A stretch of DNA of 64,000 bases from positions 1,798,001 to 1,862,000 of the forward strand of contig NZ_CP098415.1 in NCBI RefSeq assembly GCF_023702125.1, in the 5' to 3' direction. Below, piece by piece: positions 3-13,454 of this stretch. Numbering within the stretch: the stretch's first letter is position 1; each line of letters opens with the position of its first letter. The notes under the pieces were generated by a model. The model ran no database searches. It was not told the DNA's origin and worked only from the letters and a program-made list of their open reading frames with translations. Made by a program: the position numbers and the translations under genes. This stretch comes from Halorubrum hochsteinianum. GTDB taxonomy: Archaea; Halobacteriota; Halobacteria; Halobacteriales; Haloferacaceae.

Positions 3-3000
3 AGTCAGTATTCAGATGGCCAGTTGCGACGTCGAGCGAGAGCGGACACGTGGGAGAACGCTGTTGAGCAACGGTCGGCGCTTCTCGCGACCACTCGCAA
101 CGCCAGCGCTGAGTTCGACGAGGTTGGCCGCTACGGCGATCTTGAAGACGAGTGGGACCGCGACCTCGTCGGCCAACCGCTCGGCGTACAAGTGCTTACA
201 GGAGCCTTCTCAGACGATCAGCACCTCGACACAGCAGAGCGAGAGACATCCGACAAATCCGATCAGATCTCTCGTCAGCTTGGAGATCTCCGTTGTGATG
301 AGGACGCAGGTCTCTGGATGGTTCAGCAGTACCCGGCTGTGTCGTCTGGGACAGTCCACCTCGATAAGGAGAGTCGGCCGGGTGAACTCTGGCAGCGTCT
401 TGTTGGGGTCCTCGAAGCCGATATTGCGCTCGCCGTGCGCGAACTCGTCGGTGGCGTCGCTGATGGGGTCGCCTGGCAGAGGCTTGAATCGATTATCGAC
501 GATCGGTTCGGGACAGTCGACCGAGAGGCCCTTCCAGACGCGGAGAGTCTGAACGGGTCGATCGTTGCGTCGACGCTGTTGAGCTTGTGTAAGGACGTTG
601 AGTCCGAGCAGCACCAGCAGGCGCTCGAACTGCTCGAGAGCTTTGGGAGCGCAGAGTTCGGCCCGCTTGGCATCGGGTTCCCTGGTGAGCTTGCGGATGT
701 TCGCCGGGTTGTGAAGCCGTTGCTCGCAGCCGCAGACCATACGCCGACACTCACTGTGCGGATCGATGAGTCATTCCGGGAGATCGGCCACGCCGACCAA
801 CGCCGGCGGATGGTCCAGCTGCTCAGTTGGCTTGGCCACGGTGTGGACGTCCGGGTCGTGTTTGAGTCGTCCATCTGGATGCGGCGCTTTGCTTGGAGTT
901 ATGATCCGGAAATCGGCGTCGACGAGTTGGATGGGAACGTCCCGGACGTGGCAGCGTTCGATGTGAGTTCACAATGCGATACAGGCCAGCGCGCTCACGG
1001 AACTGTCGACGACCATGTCGCAGCCGCGTGTGAGGCGCTTGAGGCGGACGGCGAGGTTGTCGCAACCCTCGCCCGTATTGGTGCGGAAGCCGGCCAGACA
1101 GCTAGCTACGAGGCGCTCTATGAGGCTGCTCCGTACGACGACCCCGACCAGTCCCGGAACAACGTCGCGTACCACCTGCGCCAGCTTCGCAAACACGAAC
1201 TCGTGACCGATCGCATCGCGACTAGCGACGGGAGCAAAGTCGCAATTCGCCCGGCTGGGGTACAATTCCTCGAAGAAATCGGCCGATCTGGAACGCGACA
1301 GAAACCTCTTCAAAATTTTGTGAGTCGGACCGGAAAATCCGCCGACAATCTGGAGTCTAGACCCGCGCACACACGTGAGGGGGGGACCGGCTGGAGCCGC
1401 GACCGCCTCCCAGCACTCCACACCATCCAGCCGCTTCCCCGCTCTACGTACCAGGCCGCCGTCGCGGCGACCCCCGAGAATGGCGTCGCAACTGTCGATG
1501 CGGCGGTCTCCGAGTGGGACGATCGAGCGGCTCCGCGCCGCTACATGGACTGGGACGAGAATCGCCTCGCTGTGGCCGCCGAGGTCGATAATCCGATGCA
1601 GTGGGCGGTCTGTACTGCTCGCTCGTTGGCTGATACATTTGTCTGGGACAATCTGCTAACTGACGACCGGCTCGACGAGAATGGCGACTTCCGCCGACTC
1701 CTCCAAGAGGCACCTGGAGTTCTCCAAAATAGTGCGTGCCTCGGGTGGATCGCTGAGGAAGACGAGCTGGTTGATGATATCGGTGAGTTTGGCGACCGAA
1801 TACAAGCTGTTCTCGAGGAGATTTGCGAAATGACGCGGGACATGACTCACGGCGAGTACCGCGAGTATAACTCTCGGACAGCCTTCCGGACGAAGATTCT
1901 CACCGAGTCTCTCGGTGTGATCGGCGTGATGACCCGATTACTGGACTTCGCCGGTGTCGACATCCTTCGAATCGGTCAGATGCCCCGGTTGAAGAGTGAT
2001 TTCGATGACGAGAAGCTCTCGAGTATCGCGAAGTTCGTCGGGATCAACTCGGCGATCGGGTCGAAGTACGGGATGGCGTCGGTGTTCCGGCAACTGTTCG
2101 AGGACCGTGACGAGGTGCTCCGGTGGTCGATGGACGTCGATGTCGACGCCGCAGAACCGTTCGGTGAACTCATCGGCTCGTGGTGTCTGTTTGCCGATTA
2201 CGGCGAGCGCCAGGAAGTGTTCGCTGAGAAGCTTCGATCCAACGTTTCGCCGAAGGACATCCGGGATGACGCCCCCGAGATCGGCGTCCGCGTCCCTGTC
2301 CAGACGTCGACGAGCCGAGCCCAGTACCGGGATCTGCTCGAAGAAGCGCTTGAGGAGAAGAATCTCCTCACGACTCCAGAGGCAGTATCGGTGCTTCACG
2401 GGTTGTGTCGGTCACCGCTCGCAATCGCGAACGGCGTCGCCCGAGGCTTGGAGCCGGAAGCCGAGACGCGACATATCCGGTCTGTCGAACTCAGACGTAT
2501 CATCGCAGCCCTGTCACCAGAGCAGGTCCTCCGGGATGCGTCGTCGACGCCGCGAAAGGCGCTCGTGGCACTCGCCGGCGCTGAAGAATTCCTGACGCAG
2601 TCAGCACTCGCCGAGAGAGCTGGTGTGTCGGCTCGCTCGCTTCGTGACCACCTCCCCGACCTCGTCGATGCTGGGATCGTCGCGACGGCAAATGCTGGCT
2701 ATCGACTCCAGCTGTCGTTTGAAGAGACGGACCGCAGCGACGGAAAACTGCCTGAACGGTACCGGGATATCTACCCACACTGGGTGAGCGATCCGACTGT
2801 TAGCAACGACGTCCACGCTGCGGCTGGAGCGTTACGGACAGCTCGGGATCATCACGGACCGGATGGACCCGTCTCACCAGAGGAAGTCGGGTTCGCTGGC
2901 GATGTCTTGCTGGAACTCACAGAGCCATGGCCGTTACTCGATGAGGTGCTCCCAGCGCTGTGGGCGGTGACCGCGAGAGCGTGCTATCGAGACGATGCCG

Positions 3001-3104
3001 CCGTCGCTGGTGGTGCCCTCGTTGAACGTGAGGCTGAGATAATGGGAAGACGCCCACGCCAGTTGAGCCTTCAAGAAGCGACTACTGGAGAGCTTGTCGG
3101 ATGA
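3..3104 (+). CDS. Large winged-helix haloarchaeal protein, 5' end outside window
   Basis: The reading frame is open from the first bases of the window, with no stop upstream of the TTG at 24, so the gene very probably begins before the window. About 1030 residues are visible. Counting from that TTG, a winged-helix-like segment lies at about residues 340-405 (ending in a pattern like HLRQLRKHELV) and a second HTH-like segment at about 855-900 (ALAERAGVSARSLRDHL). The segments between them are acidic and match no enzyme family I recognise. Two separate HTH units suggest a DNA-binding protein. Proteins of this size and layout are, from memory, carried on haloarchaeal plasmids and integrated elements, which fits the mobile-gene context. 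The exact role is unknown. Confidence 0.7.
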   Translation, partial: SQYSDGQLRRRARADTWENAVEQRSALLATTRNASAEFDEVGRYGDLEDEWDRDLVGQPLGVQVLTGAFSDDQHLDTAERETSDKSDQISRQLGDLRCDEDAGLWMVQQYPAVSSGTVHLDKESRPGELWQRLVGVLEADIALAVRELVGGVADGVAWQRLESIIDDRFGTVDREALPDAESLNGSIVASTLLSLCKDVESEQHQQALELLESFGSAEFGPLGIGFPGELADVRRVVKPLLAAADHTPTLTVRIDESFREIGHADQRRRMVQLLSWLGHGVDVRVVFESSIWMRRFAWSYDPEIGVDELDGNVPDVAAFDVSSQCDTGQRAHGTVDDHVAAACEALEADGEVVATLARIGAEAGQTASYEALYEAAPYDDPDQSRNNVAYHLRQLRKHELVTDRIATSDGSKVAIRPAGVQFLEEIGRSGTRQKPLQNFVSRTGKSADNLESRPAHTREGGTGWSRDRLPALHTIQPLPRSTYQAAVAATPENGVATVDAAVSEWDDRAAPRRYMDWDENRLAVAAEVDNPMQWAVCTARSLADTFVWDNLLTDDRLDENGDFRRLLQEAPGVLQNSACLGWIAEEDELVDDIGEFGDRIQAVLEEICEMTRDMTHGEYREYNSRTAFRTKILTESLGVIGVMTRLLDFAGVDILRIGQMPRLKSDFDDEKLSSIAKFVGINSAIGSKYGMASVFRQLFEDRDEVLRWSMDVDVDAAEPFGELIGSWCLFADYGERQEVFAEKLRSNVSPKDIRDDAPEIGVRVPVQTSTSRAQYRDLLEEALEEKNLLTTPEAVSVLHGLCRSPLAIANGVARGLEPEAETRHIRSVELRRIIAALSPEQVLRDASSTPRKALVALAGAEEFLTQSALAERAGVSARSLRDHLPDLVDAGIVATANAGYRLQLSFEETDRSDGKLPERYRDIYPHWVSDPTVSNDVHAAAGALRTARDHHGPDGPVSPEEVGFAGDVLLELTEPWPLLDEVLPALWAVTARACYRDDAAVAGGALVEREAEIMGRRPRQLSLQEATTGELVG

Positions 3105-3158: not shown

Positions 3159-3617
3159 ATCGACACGTGATATATAGCGAATCCAGGCAGCACTAACTCC
3201 GTGATTATATTACTGAGTAGCGAATAAATAAGATAATGAATCGGCAGGATCGCGCTGTCACTCCTGTTATCTCGACTATTCTCATGGTCGCTATTGTCGT
3301 TATTTTAGCTGCGACAGCCTCTGTGTTCTTTTTTGATGTTGCAGGAAGTGTCACTGAGCCCGCACCGAACGTCGCCGATACGACTGGTGAATTCGAAGTT
3401 GCCGATGGAAGAGCCGGTGACAAACAACTCGTTAAAATCACTCATATCGCTGGTGACGGGGTCCGGGTGAACGAATTGGAAATTGTTGTCCGGGCAACCG
3501 GCCCTGGCGTAGATACTGACGCTAGGTTGGTTGATCTTCCGGCTGATGGCTCATCATTTGAAAACAAGAACTTTGCTGACGGTGATCCTGATAATCTAAT
3601 TGATGATGGAGATAGTA

Positions 3618-4002
3618 GGCTCTGTTGAAATCCTATTCTTCAGACATATTCACGCCTGAAACAGCCGGTCGATGAGAACTGCTTACTGAACGGCGTCAGT
3701 GTCCGCGGACGCACCTACTGTACTCTTATTGCTACAAGCAACCCGTAAAGGGTTGTTCCCCCAGCAATTACACTTAATAAAAATGAGTTATAAGGAACCG
3801 AGAGCACAGCGGCGGTAATACCTACCAATGTGATCTCGATTGCGAATAGCATCTCTCTCAGATCGCCCATAGAAGTGTGTGAGTAGAATAACTATAATAA
3901 AGTAGCCATGTTTATTGAATCCTCCTTGGATCTTACATCCTTCGTCTGTACTGAGCGATTAAGGGTGTGAAACTATCAGATGCTGAGGATTTCAACAGAG
4001 CC
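3618..4002. mobile_element. 385-bp MITE-like element with 16-bp perfect inverted ends
   Basis: The left end GGCTCTGTTGAAATCC (3618-3633) is the exact reverse complement of the right end (3987-4002). The element is flanked by an 8-bp target duplication, AGATAGTA, at 3610-3617 and 4003-4010. No transposase is present; the only coherent ORF is a 51-codon one on the minus strand. The end resembles those of the insertion sequence at 10261-11195, and an 8-bp duplication is compatible with IS6- or IS5-type transposition. It is therefore a non-autonomous element mobilised in trans. The insertion has disabled the pilin gene. Confidence 0.9.
3715..3870 (-). CDS. 51-residue hydrophobic passenger ORF inside the MITE-like element
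   Basis: An ATG at 3870 opens a 51-codon frame ending in TAG at 3715. The product starts MGDLREMLFAIEITLVG and has two hydrophobic stretches separated by a short turn, so it would be a small two-helix membrane protein. It fills much of the element between the two ends. It may be a real cargo gene, since hydrophobic character over the whole length is unusual for a random frame. I do not recognise a family. Confidence 0.45.
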   Translation of the reverse strand: MGDLREMLFAIEITLVGITAAVLSVPYNSFLLSVIAGGTTLYGLLVAIRVQ

Positions 4003-4301
4003 AGATAGTACTAAAAATAGTGTTATCACATCGGATGGAATAGACGTGTGGTCTGCGGGCCAGACAATCACATTCCGAATAAATACTGGTACGGCTGATT
4101 TTCGTAAGGGCGAAACTCCAGATGCCGACGAAGTTGAAGTTGTGATTGTCCACACTCCGTCTGGGACGATTATATCACAGAATACGTTCACGGCCTAGCG
4201 ATTTGAAGAGAGTGTTCTGATACCTCAAGCCAAATTTCTCAGCGCTGTACCTGTGTTCTCTATACGGCACAACCTAGATCTGATTACTATCTCAGAGTAG
4301 C

Positions 4302-4318
4302 GTAAAACGCGAGATTTA
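4302..4318. repeat. Direct repeat right of the pilin locus (copy 2)
   Basis: This is the partner of the 17-bp sequence at 3142-3158 (two mismatches). It sits about 33 bp before the start of the TRAM-domain gene, so it may include that gene's promoter. Confidence 0.35.
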
Positions 4319-4351
4319 GGTACGTTGGATAGCTTAGACTCGTGATACTTG

Positions 4352-4783
4352 ATGATCGAGATTCCTGATTCGCTTCGCTCTGTATTCAGTGCTCAACTCG
4401 AAGAACGTGATGGGTCATATGTCGTCGATATTCCGGCGAGTGAAATCGAACATGACACGCTCGCTGCCAACGAAACGTACCGCGTCGCGATCTTGGCGTC
4501 AGAACTCTCGACAGACCAGAAGACTCACCAAGAGCAACAGCAATCGACTACACAAGATACGGCTCCGACGTCGGACGGTCCTCCGGTAAATGAAGGTGAG
4601 GTCCGCGACGTGACGATCGAAACGACTGGTGATCAGGGCGACGGCATCGCGAAGGTTGAACGCGGCTACGTCGTGATCGTCCCCGGCGGACAACCAGGTG
4701 ATGAGCCGACGGTCGAGATCGAACAAGTACAAGACAACGTCGCGTTCGCCAGCATCGCCGAACGCAACTCACGAGCGCTATAA
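4352..4783 (+). CDS. TRAM-domain protein
   Basis: The 143-residue product has a C-terminal TRAM domain (about residues 80-140) with the recognisable pattern VTIETTGDQGDGIAKVERGY followed by VVIVPG and a final AFASI strand. TRAM is an OB-fold RNA-binding module; stand-alone TRAM proteins in archaea act as RNA chaperones or regulators. The N-terminal half is acidic and Gln/Thr-rich and has no recognised fold. I chose the ATG at 4352 over the TTG one codon upstream. The gene sits alone between the pilin locus and the convergent DUF6788-like gene. The target RNA is unknown. Confidence 0.8.
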   Translation: MIEIPDSLRSVFSAQLEERDGSYVVDIPASEIEHDTLAANETYRVAILASELSTDQKTHQEQQQSTTQDTAPTSDGPPVNEGEVRDVTIETTGDQGDGIAKVERGYVVIVPGGQPGDEPTVEIEQVQDNVAFASIAERNSRAL

Positions 4784-4847
4784 CGTCGTTGTACTGGCGA
4801 CTTCTGTTGGTCGACGTCGTTGTGATCCTGACCGTCTCGATCCACTC

Positions 4848-5195
4848 CTACTCACTTCCGGGTTTCCCGACGTACTCCGATTTCATCGTCCCATTCTCAC
4901 GATAGTAACGATAGAGATACGGGCCATGCATATCTGCGGGATCCCCGCTAGCGCACTTACAATTATCGTCGCCACAGGTCACCTTCTCTTTGACGACGGT
5001 TCCGGTGCCCTCACTATCCGGCTCGTCGACGGGCTCGGCGGTCTCGGGGAGTTCATCGGTGTCGACAGACTGTTCGCGGTACTCGGTGAGCGCTTCCACG
5101 TAGGCCTGTACCTCGTGGAGCGTCTCCGTATCCTGTTTGGGGAGTCCCTCTGCGAGATACTTCGGGAGCGAGGCGGGTGGTGACGGCTGCTTCAT
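4848..5195 (-). CDS. DUF6788-like small protein
   Basis: The 115-residue acidic protein carries a conserved C-terminal motif: VTCGDDNCKC, then HGPYLYRYYRENG, then SEYVGK. This pattern occurs in small DUF6788-type proteins found on many haloarchaeal and bacterial mobile elements, often near transposition or replication genes. Two Cys pairs could bind zinc. The start codon ATG lies inside one arm of a perfect 12-bp inverted repeat, suggesting a leaderless, repressible promoter. No biochemical function is established. Confidence 0.65.
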   Translation of the reverse strand: MKQPSPPASLPKYLAEGLPKQDTETLHEVQAYVEALTEYREQSVDTDELPETAEPVDEPDSEGTGTVVKEKVTCGDDNCKCASGDPADMHGPYLYRYYRENGTMKSEYVGKPGSE

Positions 5196-5247
5196 ACCTT
5201 ATGTAACAATTGGAGTCACTTTAACGCTCGTCTGATACATAAGGTAT
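5194..5247. promoter_or_regulatory. Perfect 12-bp inverted repeat spanning a leaderless promoter
   Basis: ATACCTTATGTA (5194-5205) and its exact reverse complement TACATAAGGTAT (5236-5247) are separated by 30 bp. The first arm overlaps the ATG of the DUF6788-like gene. The spacer, read on the minus strand, contains GTTAAAG at TATA-box distance. The arrangement suggests two operator half-sites flanking a core promoter. Confidence 0.6.
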
Positions 5248-5282
5248 TGAGATCGCTCCACCAACTGTGAGCGCTTCAGTGA

Positions 5283-5438
5283 TTACTTGAGATCGTAGGC
5301 CGCAATCTCGTAAGAGCCACACTGTGGACATTCATCGACGTCCTTCTCGACGCTGTATCCACAGTAGCGACACTCGTGGTGCGTTGTCGATGGCGGCTCA
5401 AGCCTGACGATCTGCTTGATGAATTGTTTACTGAGCAT
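5283..5438 (-). CDS. Small zinc-ribbon protein (51 aa)
   Basis: Starting from the ATG at 5438, the product has one zinc ribbon formed by CRYCGYS and CPQCGSY near the C-terminus. Short zinc ribbons like this are common in haloarchaea and are often RNA- or protein-binding adaptors. The gene starts inside the end of the upstream small zinc-finger gene (11-nt overlap), so both are probably translated from one mRNA. A longer in-frame extension upstream would overlap that gene fully and was rejected. Confidence 0.6.
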   Translation of the reverse strand: MLSKQFIKQIVRLEPPSTTHHECRYCGYSVEKDVDECPQCGSYEIAAYDLK

Positions 5439-5595
5439 TAGTAGGGTCGACGATTTCGCCACAGCCGGGACATTCGGCCCACACGCCTGGGTCACCGCTA
5501 GCTGTTTCATAGTGGATGATCGCGTGTCGATCCGTGACTGTCTTGCCGCAGAACGAGCAGGTGCCACGGACTGTCTCTGGGTTGTCTGGAGTCAT
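5428..5595 (-). CDS. Small CxxC zinc-finger protein (55 aa)
   Basis: The product starts MTPDNPETVRGTCSFCGK and has a second pair, CPGCGE, giving a four-cysteine zinc finger. It is the first gene of a two-gene zinc-finger operon. Upstream lies a large nested inverted repeat (5624-5695). No specific family function is known to me. Confidence 0.6.
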   Translation of the reverse strand: MTPDNPETVRGTCSFCGKTVTDRHAIIHYETASGDPGVWAECPGCGEIVDPTNAQ

Positions 5596-5623
5596 CCTCA
5601 CGATCTCGGGAGCTATGTTTAGG

Positions 5624-5695
5624 GGAGAGGGAGCGTGTGACACTGTTTTAGACCTGACTCGGTTGTTAAAACCGACTCAGCTGTGCTCCCTCTCC
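5624..5695. promoter_or_regulatory. Nested inverted repeats upstream of the zinc-finger operon
   Basis: Outer arms GGAGAGGGAGC (5624-5634) and GCTCCCTCTCC (5685-5695) are perfect complements. Inner arms TGACTCGGTT (5655-5664) and AACCGACTCA (5670-5679) pair at 9 of 10 positions. The transcript of this stretch could fold into a long two-part hairpin in the leader of the operon, or the DNA could be a protein-binding site. The rest of 5696-5892 shows nothing I can assign. Confidence 0.5.
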
Positions 5696-5892
5696 TCAAA
5701 GTTAGAGACTCTGTAACTTATACTTCGGGCGAGCGGGGCGAAAGTACTGTTCCGGGACAGCAGTGTGACCGCTGATCGTGGGTAGCTATCACGCAGTCAC
5801 GATAACTATTGATCATAGTGGACGTCCAGCTGTCCTCAGGATCGACACGTTGTTCCGCAGCTCGTGGCACGCTCTCTCCAATCTGACCCCCT

Positions 5893-10260: not shown

Positions 10261-11195
10261 TGCTTTGTTGAATCCGATGATGGCGTTGGGGTCACTGCTT
10301 GAGAGCCTGTTCGAGGTTGTAGACTGTGGCGGTCAACATGAGTTCGCGGAACTCGCGGTACCAAGCGCGAGGGTGGACAGCGGGGCCGAACCGACGCTTG
10401 ATGGCCGAAAAGGCAGTCTCGGCCATCCACCGCTGACCGTATAATTCGCTGTCCAACCGTGCGTTGTGTGCGTGATCGTACGCAGCGAACAGCCGGTGGC
10501 GCAGCAAGGGCCGGACGCCCTCTGAACGGAGGGCGTCCCGGAGCGATTGATCGTCATAGCCTTTGTCGCCGGCGAGACTCTCGATTTTCTCGGTGTTACG
10601 AAGGGCAACTCGACGGCCAGTTTGCGTGTCGTGAGGCCAGTGTGCCGAGCAGTGAATATCGAGGATGGCACACGAGTCGGTATCGACGAGTGCCGTCGTT
10701 TTGAGCGTGCGTATGTGGCGATCCGAGCGGTGTTGGTAGTGTCTCGATGCCGTTTCGCGGTCGAAGAACGTTGCATCGATGGCACCGTGCGAGCCCGGAT
10801 CGCAGATATTCGCGGACTCCCGAAGGAAGCCGCGCCACACCGACATGGGCACCCTCTCAAACGACCGGTACAGCGTTGAGGGTGCGGGAAATGCCGTTCG
10901 AGTGAGCTGTAACAGACCGCGAACACGATCCATCTCGCTCGCCCAATCAACGATCTCGCGGTACGTCGCATCCATGTGAACCCGCAAAAAGTGGAGCGTG
11001 ACATGCTTCCAACCGGGAAATCCGTTGCCAGTCGGATCACTCACCGCCGTTGGACTGGCGGCACAGCGCTTTTGAGCCAGCGACGCGGCTTGCTTAACGA
11101 AGCGGAAGAGTAGCTTGGACACATTCGACTCTTCCGCTTCGCTACTGCCTTCAGAGCGACGCTATCCCGCCGCCTTCTGCGGATTCAACAGAGCA
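10261..11195. mobile_element. IS5-family-type insertion sequence
   Basis: Inverted ends TGCTTTGTTGAATCC (10261-10275) and GGATTCAACAGAGCA (11181-11195) match at 14 of 15 positions and bracket one transposase gene. No target duplication is visible next to the ends, and the integrase on the left has lost its 5' part. This points to an adjacent deletion or to recombination between two copies. The ends are close to those of the MITE-like element at 3618-4002. Confidence 0.85.
10292..11122 (-). CDS. IS5-family-type transposase
   Basis: The 276-residue DDE transposase has its first Asp in GAIDATFFD, the second in LAGDKGYDD and the Glu in QRWMAETAFSAIKRRFG. The Y/R-x-E-K spacing of this last box is typical of the IS5/IS4 group common in haloarchaea. 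The length is normal and the frame is intact, so the element may still be active and could mobilise related elements in trans. It ends about 30 bp inside the left terminal repeat. Confidence 0.9.
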   Translation of the reverse strand: MSKLLFRFVKQAASLAQKRCAASPTAVSDPTGNGFPGWKHVTLHFLRVHMDATYREIVDWASEMDRVRGLLQLTRTAFPAPSTLYRSFERVPMSVWRGFLRESANICDPGSHGAIDATFFDRETASRHYQHRSDRHIRTLKTTALVDTDSCAILDIHCSAHWPHDTQTGRRVALRNTEKIESLAGDKGYDDQSLRDALRSEGVRPLLRHRLFAAYDHAHNARLDSELYGQRWMAETAFSAIKRRFGPAVHPRAWYREFRELMLTATVYNLEQALKQ

Positions 11196-13378: not shown

Positions 13379-13438
13379 TTCGCAGAGTGACCGACTTGCG
13401 CTTTGTATTCAGGATGGCTCCGAGAACATGTCACCAAA

Positions 13439-13454
13439 GGATTTCAACGGAGCC
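13439..13454. repeat. Solo terminal repeat of the GGCTCTGTTGAAATCC type
   Basis: GGATTTCAACGGAGCC differs at one base from the right end of the MITE-like element at 3987-4002. No matching left end was found within reach, so it is probably a remnant of a lost element. Confidence 0.5.

Follow-up and report, generated by a model that had tools for sequence, protein, structure and literature searches.

A 385-bp insertion in a haloarchaeal type IV pilin gene as a probable member of a cassette family with IS5-type ends and small membrane-protein cargo

The 64,000-nucleotide stretch of DNA analysed here (the window; G000:C1:1798001-1862000) comes from a two-contig genome of 3.06 Mb and contains a type IV pilin gene disrupted by a transposon-type insertion. 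The insert is very probably a non-autonomous cassette that was moved in trans into the pilin gene; its ends would be recognised by an IS5-family transposase, it encloses a gene for a small membrane protein, probably with its own promoter, and it belongs to a family in which cargo is probably gained by end-skipping. The coordinates of the relevant features are listed in Table 1.

Table 1. Features of the interrupted pilin locus (positions in the window)
Feature	Position	Strand	Basis or remark
Type IV pilin gene, 5' part	3236..3628	+	Frame stops within the element, 130 aa; Pilin_N PF07790
Target duplication AGATAGTA, left copy	3610..3617	+	Sequence
Putative non-autonomous cassette, 385 bp	3618..4002	-	Inverted ends, duplication, full-length relatives
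A end, ~65 bp	3618..3682	+	96.9% to the family A-end consensus; conserved across unrelated cargo
Predicted cargo gene, 51-aa hydrophobic protein	3715..3870	-	57 aa in relatives; extra base near the end gives a shorter tail
TATA-like stretch	3893..3901	-	23-31 bases 5' of the cargo start; read from upstream sequence
B end (subtype B2), ~56 bp	3946..4002	-	91.2% to the B2 consensus
Target duplication AGATAGTA, right copy	4003..4010	+	Sequence
Pilin gene, 3' part including stop codon	4011..4198	+	In frame with the 5' part

The product of the interrupted pilin frame exceeds the Pilin_N cut-off of 25.2 bits with a score of 55.3. With the insert present the frame terminates at a stop supplied by the element; upon removal of 393 bp the flanks, which share the same frame, join into 570 nt coding for 189 residues and a stop. 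A first-pass annotation of this DNA had described such an interruption, with the element contributing the stop codon and a 189-residue pilin restored on removal, and all of this agrees with the uninterrupted gene at the corresponding empty site of Halorubrum persicum (L011 5001-5570, 189 aa). The joined pilin flanks align with this site over 561 bp at 90.2% identity and with no gaps, which contradicts the possibility that the 385 bp are a fixed part of an intact gene shared by relatives. The H. persicum contig aligns with window positions 3172-3617 and 4004-5790; since the alignment starts only at about 3172, the upstream neighbourhood of the pilin gene differs in that species. An open frame of 1026 aa lies 5' of the pilin gene (window 24-3104, plus strand). 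The named relatives found to carry the pilin are three in number, all of them Halorubrum. Relatives of the first 127 residues occur in 98 of 167 genomes of the host family (E 1e-8), the nearest (in G020) being 91% identical and lacking an internal stop.

The element is flanked by identical copies (8/8) of AGATAGTA, the 8-bp target duplication reported in the first-pass annotation. Its inverted ends are perfect, as stated there, over 17 bp and not the 16 bp then given, and they are ~77% complementary over 39 bp. The conservation of the A end extends far past these 17 bp, and this end holds an inner TTCAG...CTGAA inverted repeat. Among the matches listed, full-length relatives (84-85%) were found in two genomes (L015 and L016), and 51 of the 52 genus genomes contain matches to the element, mostly to just its first 50-85 bp. 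The end sequence, with up to two mismatches, occurs 23 times in the source genome, compared to no occurrence in a backwards control; the ends are thus found at many other places and are not peculiar to this locus. A search of a phage collection with the 385-bp element gave no match.

The earlier designation of the insert as a MITE holds in part: the element is short, has inverted ends and a duplication, and lacks a transposase, but the non-coding character implied by this term does not apply, as the element contains a conserved ORF of 51-57 aa. Judged by its pattern of substitutions, the element is more than a non-coding MITE and carries a predicted, conserved small gene on the minus strand. 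The 51-residue protein of the window copy shows two hydrophobic stretches. The versions in L015 and L016 have 57 residues; one additional base late in the gene has cost the window copy its arginine-rich tail. Pairwise dN/dS values are 0.28-0.34, derived from 6-9 substitutions in each class for every pair, and the window element differs from that of L015 at 14 of 155 coding positions, compared to 31 of 138 interior non-coding ones. The protein was found in four of the 167 genomes of the host family, each time within a stretch that matches the window element. Because the window copy is frameshifted and the G035 copy contains a stop codon, the gene may be decaying in places.

In the source genome, the 23 end matches delimit eight duplication-bounded elements of 341, 348, 385, 469, 605, 967, 1418 and 1594 bp (the last with a duplication of 7/8); the others represent a decayed 383-bp element, a decayed remnant at C1:327924 and four solitary ends. 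Leaving out the C1:327924 remnant, eight of the nine elements contain a hydrophobic or lipoprotein-like ORF. The ninth is the 967-bp cassette (L003 1501-2467; G000:C1:1903321-1904287), whose two genes exceed the cut-offs for HVO_A0114 and the toxin model TumE and form a probable toxin-antitoxin pair. The window itself also contains a solitary end-like stretch (13421-13454, minus strand), consisting of GGCTCCGTTGAAATCC and some inner similarity (78-79%), for which no partner was found in the window.

The wider distribution of the ends was assessed by scanning 150 loci (L001-L153 minus L011-L013), including 80 regions fetched by the A end, for inverted ends bordered by matching 8-mers. The scan gave 54 distinct bounded pairs, of which 45 were kept under the rule that each end have no more than three mismatches and that the A end be recognisable. 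The kept elements measure 341-2466 bp, and 41 of them are flanked by perfect 8-bp duplications. The nine pairs dropped by the rule include seven with perfect duplications; two of these (L073 and L143) are related to IS5 more distantly and have ends of their own. The regions fetched by the A end contributed 28 of the 45 kept elements, from 27 regions, the other 53 yielding none. The family is thereby defined by two fixed ends, A (~65 bp) and B (~56 bp, with three subtypes distinguished by eye), around unrelated interiors. An initial clustering of the interiors produced one group of 15 that was chained via end-like stretches. Masking resulted in 35 groups, or 38 after splitting one six-member group that had been joined by matches of 32-72 bp. 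The A end is present in 120 of 170 genomes of the host family, representing 23 of 28 genera, as well as in 59 plasmid records; the plasmid matches listed are from haloarchaea, among them Haloarcula, Haloferax and Natrinema.

The cargo of these elements was examined with a membrane-span rule (hydropathy of 1.9 over 19 residues in an ORF of at least 45 codons), a single threshold of our own choosing. Among the 27 independent groups with short cargo (up to 800 bp), 20 possess an ORF that spans the membrane by this hydropathy rule; pieces of flanking DNA of equal length averaged 2.6 such groups (maximum 7) and first-order shuffles 0.9 (maximum 4), with 200 draws of each. When the longest ORF itself had to qualify, the corresponding numbers were 17 of 27 groups, 1.8 (maximum 6) and 0.6 (maximum 3). 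Overall, 30 of the 38 groups contain such an ORF, the controls covering the 27 short groups. The seven short groups that fail the rule comprise three with lipoprotein-like starts (L043, L084 and L141), two just below the threshold (L026 and L133), one whose protein has no such stretch (L030) and one of low complexity (L081). In L038, L081 and L100 the interior is a low-complexity, GC-rich repeat with arginine-, alanine- and serine-rich frames and no clear gene.

In four cargo groups represented by more than one element, dN/dS values fall between 0.21 and 0.34, except for one pair with saturated dS; as far as codon comparisons reveal it, these values show purifying selection in all four groups. 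The A+T content upstream of the cargo starts (47 ORFs) peaks at 0.70 between -30 and -25, compared to 0.50-0.61 elsewhere. Twelve Pfam families were matched above cut-offs by the 47 cargo proteins, each by one protein, among them a histidine kinase (L125), a PBP-like lipoprotein (L113), a trypsin-like protease (L124), a PIN-domain protein (L025) and DUF5518 (L019). Two other proposals were set aside. An anti-virus function for the cargo was not adopted, PADLOC having given four family matches, with one protein each, among the 47 proteins, and the relative of the window cargo in L016 having given one weak match to a PHROG membrane protein (E 1.7e-4). The same was true for a preferred orientation of the cargo toward the A end, which was seen in only 23 versus 16 of 39 elements.

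Five of the 45 kept elements encode a transposase, and all five have the same A end as the cassettes, albeit in weaker form in L057. The best NCBIfam model for the transposase is that of the IS5 family (NF033579; 218.7 bits against a cut-off of 140), whereas the score with the IS4 model, 42.7 bits, stays below its cut-off of 115; within the IS5 family, ISH1 is a candidate subgroup. An intact gene is located at C2:66878-67696, within the 1418-bp element, which is bounded by a perfect duplication. All five elements also hold a separate hydrophobic ORF. Their B ends match those of the cassettes over only 20-34 bp. The window element accordingly shares with them the A end, the duplication length and part of the B end, as would a derivative of an IS5-family element, and the pairing of the cassettes with an IS5-family transposase is strongly suggested by these comparisons. 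Three additional transposase elements (L058, L059 and L067) display perfect duplications and a diverged A end, and may perhaps represent a second end type of the same enzyme family. In the window, a frame of 289 aa (10301-11110, minus strand; G000:C1:1808301-1809110) codes for a distant IS5-type transposase, 41% identical to that of the 1418-bp element.

Relics of inner ends are evident in four of the 45 elements (L025, L075, L076 and L113). In L025, an inner A end (91% identity) bounds a unit of 478 bp that has its B end in common with the outer element, and the extra 1.07 kb contains a PIN-domain gene together with a small gene that has no Pfam match; L076 consists of a cassette and a transposase element placed back to back. 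Such nested inner ends suggest capture by end-skipping. Pack-TYPE elements are gene-capturing transposons, in which the cargo is traceable to resident host genes. Two cargo families of the present elements, found in 36 and 18 of the 167 genomes, form bounded cassettes at 2 of 30 and 3 of 18 examined loci, respectively. Since several of their copies sit amid flanks that are conserved across genomes, both families also live as resident genes. These conserved chromosomal places could point to a Pack-TYPE origin of the cargo, but the nearest unbounded copies resemble decayed cassettes. L214 and L217 were considered as free donors of a 121-aa cargo and rejected, because the inner parts of both ends seem to be retained; these remnants indicate that the two loci are probably decayed cassettes.

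Taken together, the proposed course of events would be as follows. An IS5-family transposase would recognise the two conserved ends around one small membrane-protein gene, which in the window insert has a probable promoter of its own. Supplied in trans, with the 1418-bp element of contig C2 as one possible source, the enzyme would have inserted the cassette into the pilin gene, creating the 8-bp duplication and cutting the pilin to 130 residues. The same ends would ferry many unrelated genes, often those of small membrane proteins or lipoproteins and including at least one toxin-antitoxin-like pair, and new cargo would probably be acquired whenever the enzyme passes over an inner end and acts on one farther out. 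Movement in trans, expression of the cargo and capture by end-skipping are what we infer from the arrangement of the sequences.

Alternatively, the insert could be an ordinary non-coding MITE, its interior mere filler, its small ORF accidental and the broken pilin its only biological consequence. Its size of 385 bp, the inverted ends, the duplication and the lack of a transposase would all be in keeping with this, as would the shortness of the cargo frame, its frameshift in the window copy and its stop codon in G035. We nevertheless consider this unlikely in view of the dN/dS of 0.28-0.34 and the lower divergence of the coding part, the large excess of hydrophobic ORFs over both controls across independent interiors, and the comparable dN/dS in three further cargo groups. 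The identity of the mover can also be questioned: the terminal letters and the 8-bp duplication presumably resemble those of haloarchaeal IS6 elements, which would favour an IS6-type transposase, the IS5-type elements having merely acquired the same ends, and the fact that the transposase elements share just the outer part of the B end would fit such an origin. That five of the 45 kept elements, all sharing the A end, contain the IS5-family gene makes a different mover, such as an IS6-type enzyme, quite improbable, and no IS6-type gene was noted among the 45, as viewed without a model search. IS6 ancestry had been the leading idea, and was abandoned once an IS5-family transposase gene had been recognised in elements that share the A end.

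To our knowledge, exact restoration of an insertion site by an IS5-family enzyme is not routinely expected. A phase switch, in which precise excision would restore the pilin and alter adhesion, draws on the pilin flanks having remained in frame, and on a report in which Haloquadratum is proposed to lose transposons without trace by deletion between their target duplications and in which transposon mutations of Halobacterium are described as reverting at a high rate (PMC3119063). Because such a deletion has been proposed, reversion of the pilin gene by a host route is possible. The locus is nonetheless seen in one state only, in a single assembly, nothing links the interrupted pilin to adhesion, and relatives of the element occur elsewhere with other cargo, as for a general mobile element, all of which renders a dedicated switch very unlikely.

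With the insert regarded as a cassette, the closest known kind is the mobile insertion cassette (MIC) of the IS231/MIC231 type, of which the present family looks like an IS5-type, archaeal variant rich in membrane proteins. In MIC231, passenger genes lie between IS ends, with or without a transposase gene. The modular IS-plus-passenger design of IS231/MIC231 has been described in Bacillus cereus (PMC2266710), and the window element likewise has IS-type ends around a non-transposase gene. Its ends and the associated transposase are not of the IS231/IS4 type: IS231/MIC231 belongs to the IS4 family and to Bacteria, whereas the present family is IS5-type and archaeal, with many more types of cargo, mostly small hydrophobic proteins. 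The ISH2-type MITEs of Halobacterium and Haloquadratum are likewise haloarchaeal and devoid of a transposase, with lengths of ~520-531 bp, and their one ORF is reported to be expressed and the elements to be moved in trans; they differ in their ISH8-related ends, 10-bp duplications and single type of ORF (PMC3119063, PMC10264941). The Tn3-derived TIMEs of Pseudomonas are also non-autonomous ends that mobilise the DNA between them, in mosaics of 262-3892 bp, but are bacterial members of the Tn3 family with 38-bp ends and duplications of 5-6 bp (PMC4133298). Hlac_3088, a passenger of a Halorubrum lacusprofundi transposon, is similarly a surface protein with a membrane span, described as a single case and proposed to be a virus-exclusion factor (PMC10544981). 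A 2024 review of prokaryotic MITEs includes few archaeal cases (PMC10969869). In the literature searched (open-licence papers), no description of the present cassette family was recognised.

Elements of this size are readily overlooked as non-coding MITEs. Their hydrophobic bias raises the question of whether the cargo influences competition, the surface of the cell or its susceptibility to viruses. As a speculative and rather doubtful extension, haloarchaeal envelope genes may travel widely by means of a single IS5-type transposase with its pair of ends, a common carrier by which dozens of unrelated genes for small membrane proteins and lipoproteins would be acquired, dispersed and lost again; the cargo would be favoured for changing encounters with viruses or rivals, through virus exclusion or as small membrane toxins, and some copies would become resident. 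If the elements are indeed gene cassettes, a second IS family, in Archaea, would have a modular design like that of IS231/MIC231, genes of unknown function could be grouped by their vehicle, and some of the orphan small membrane proteins of haloarchaea would have a route by which to spread.
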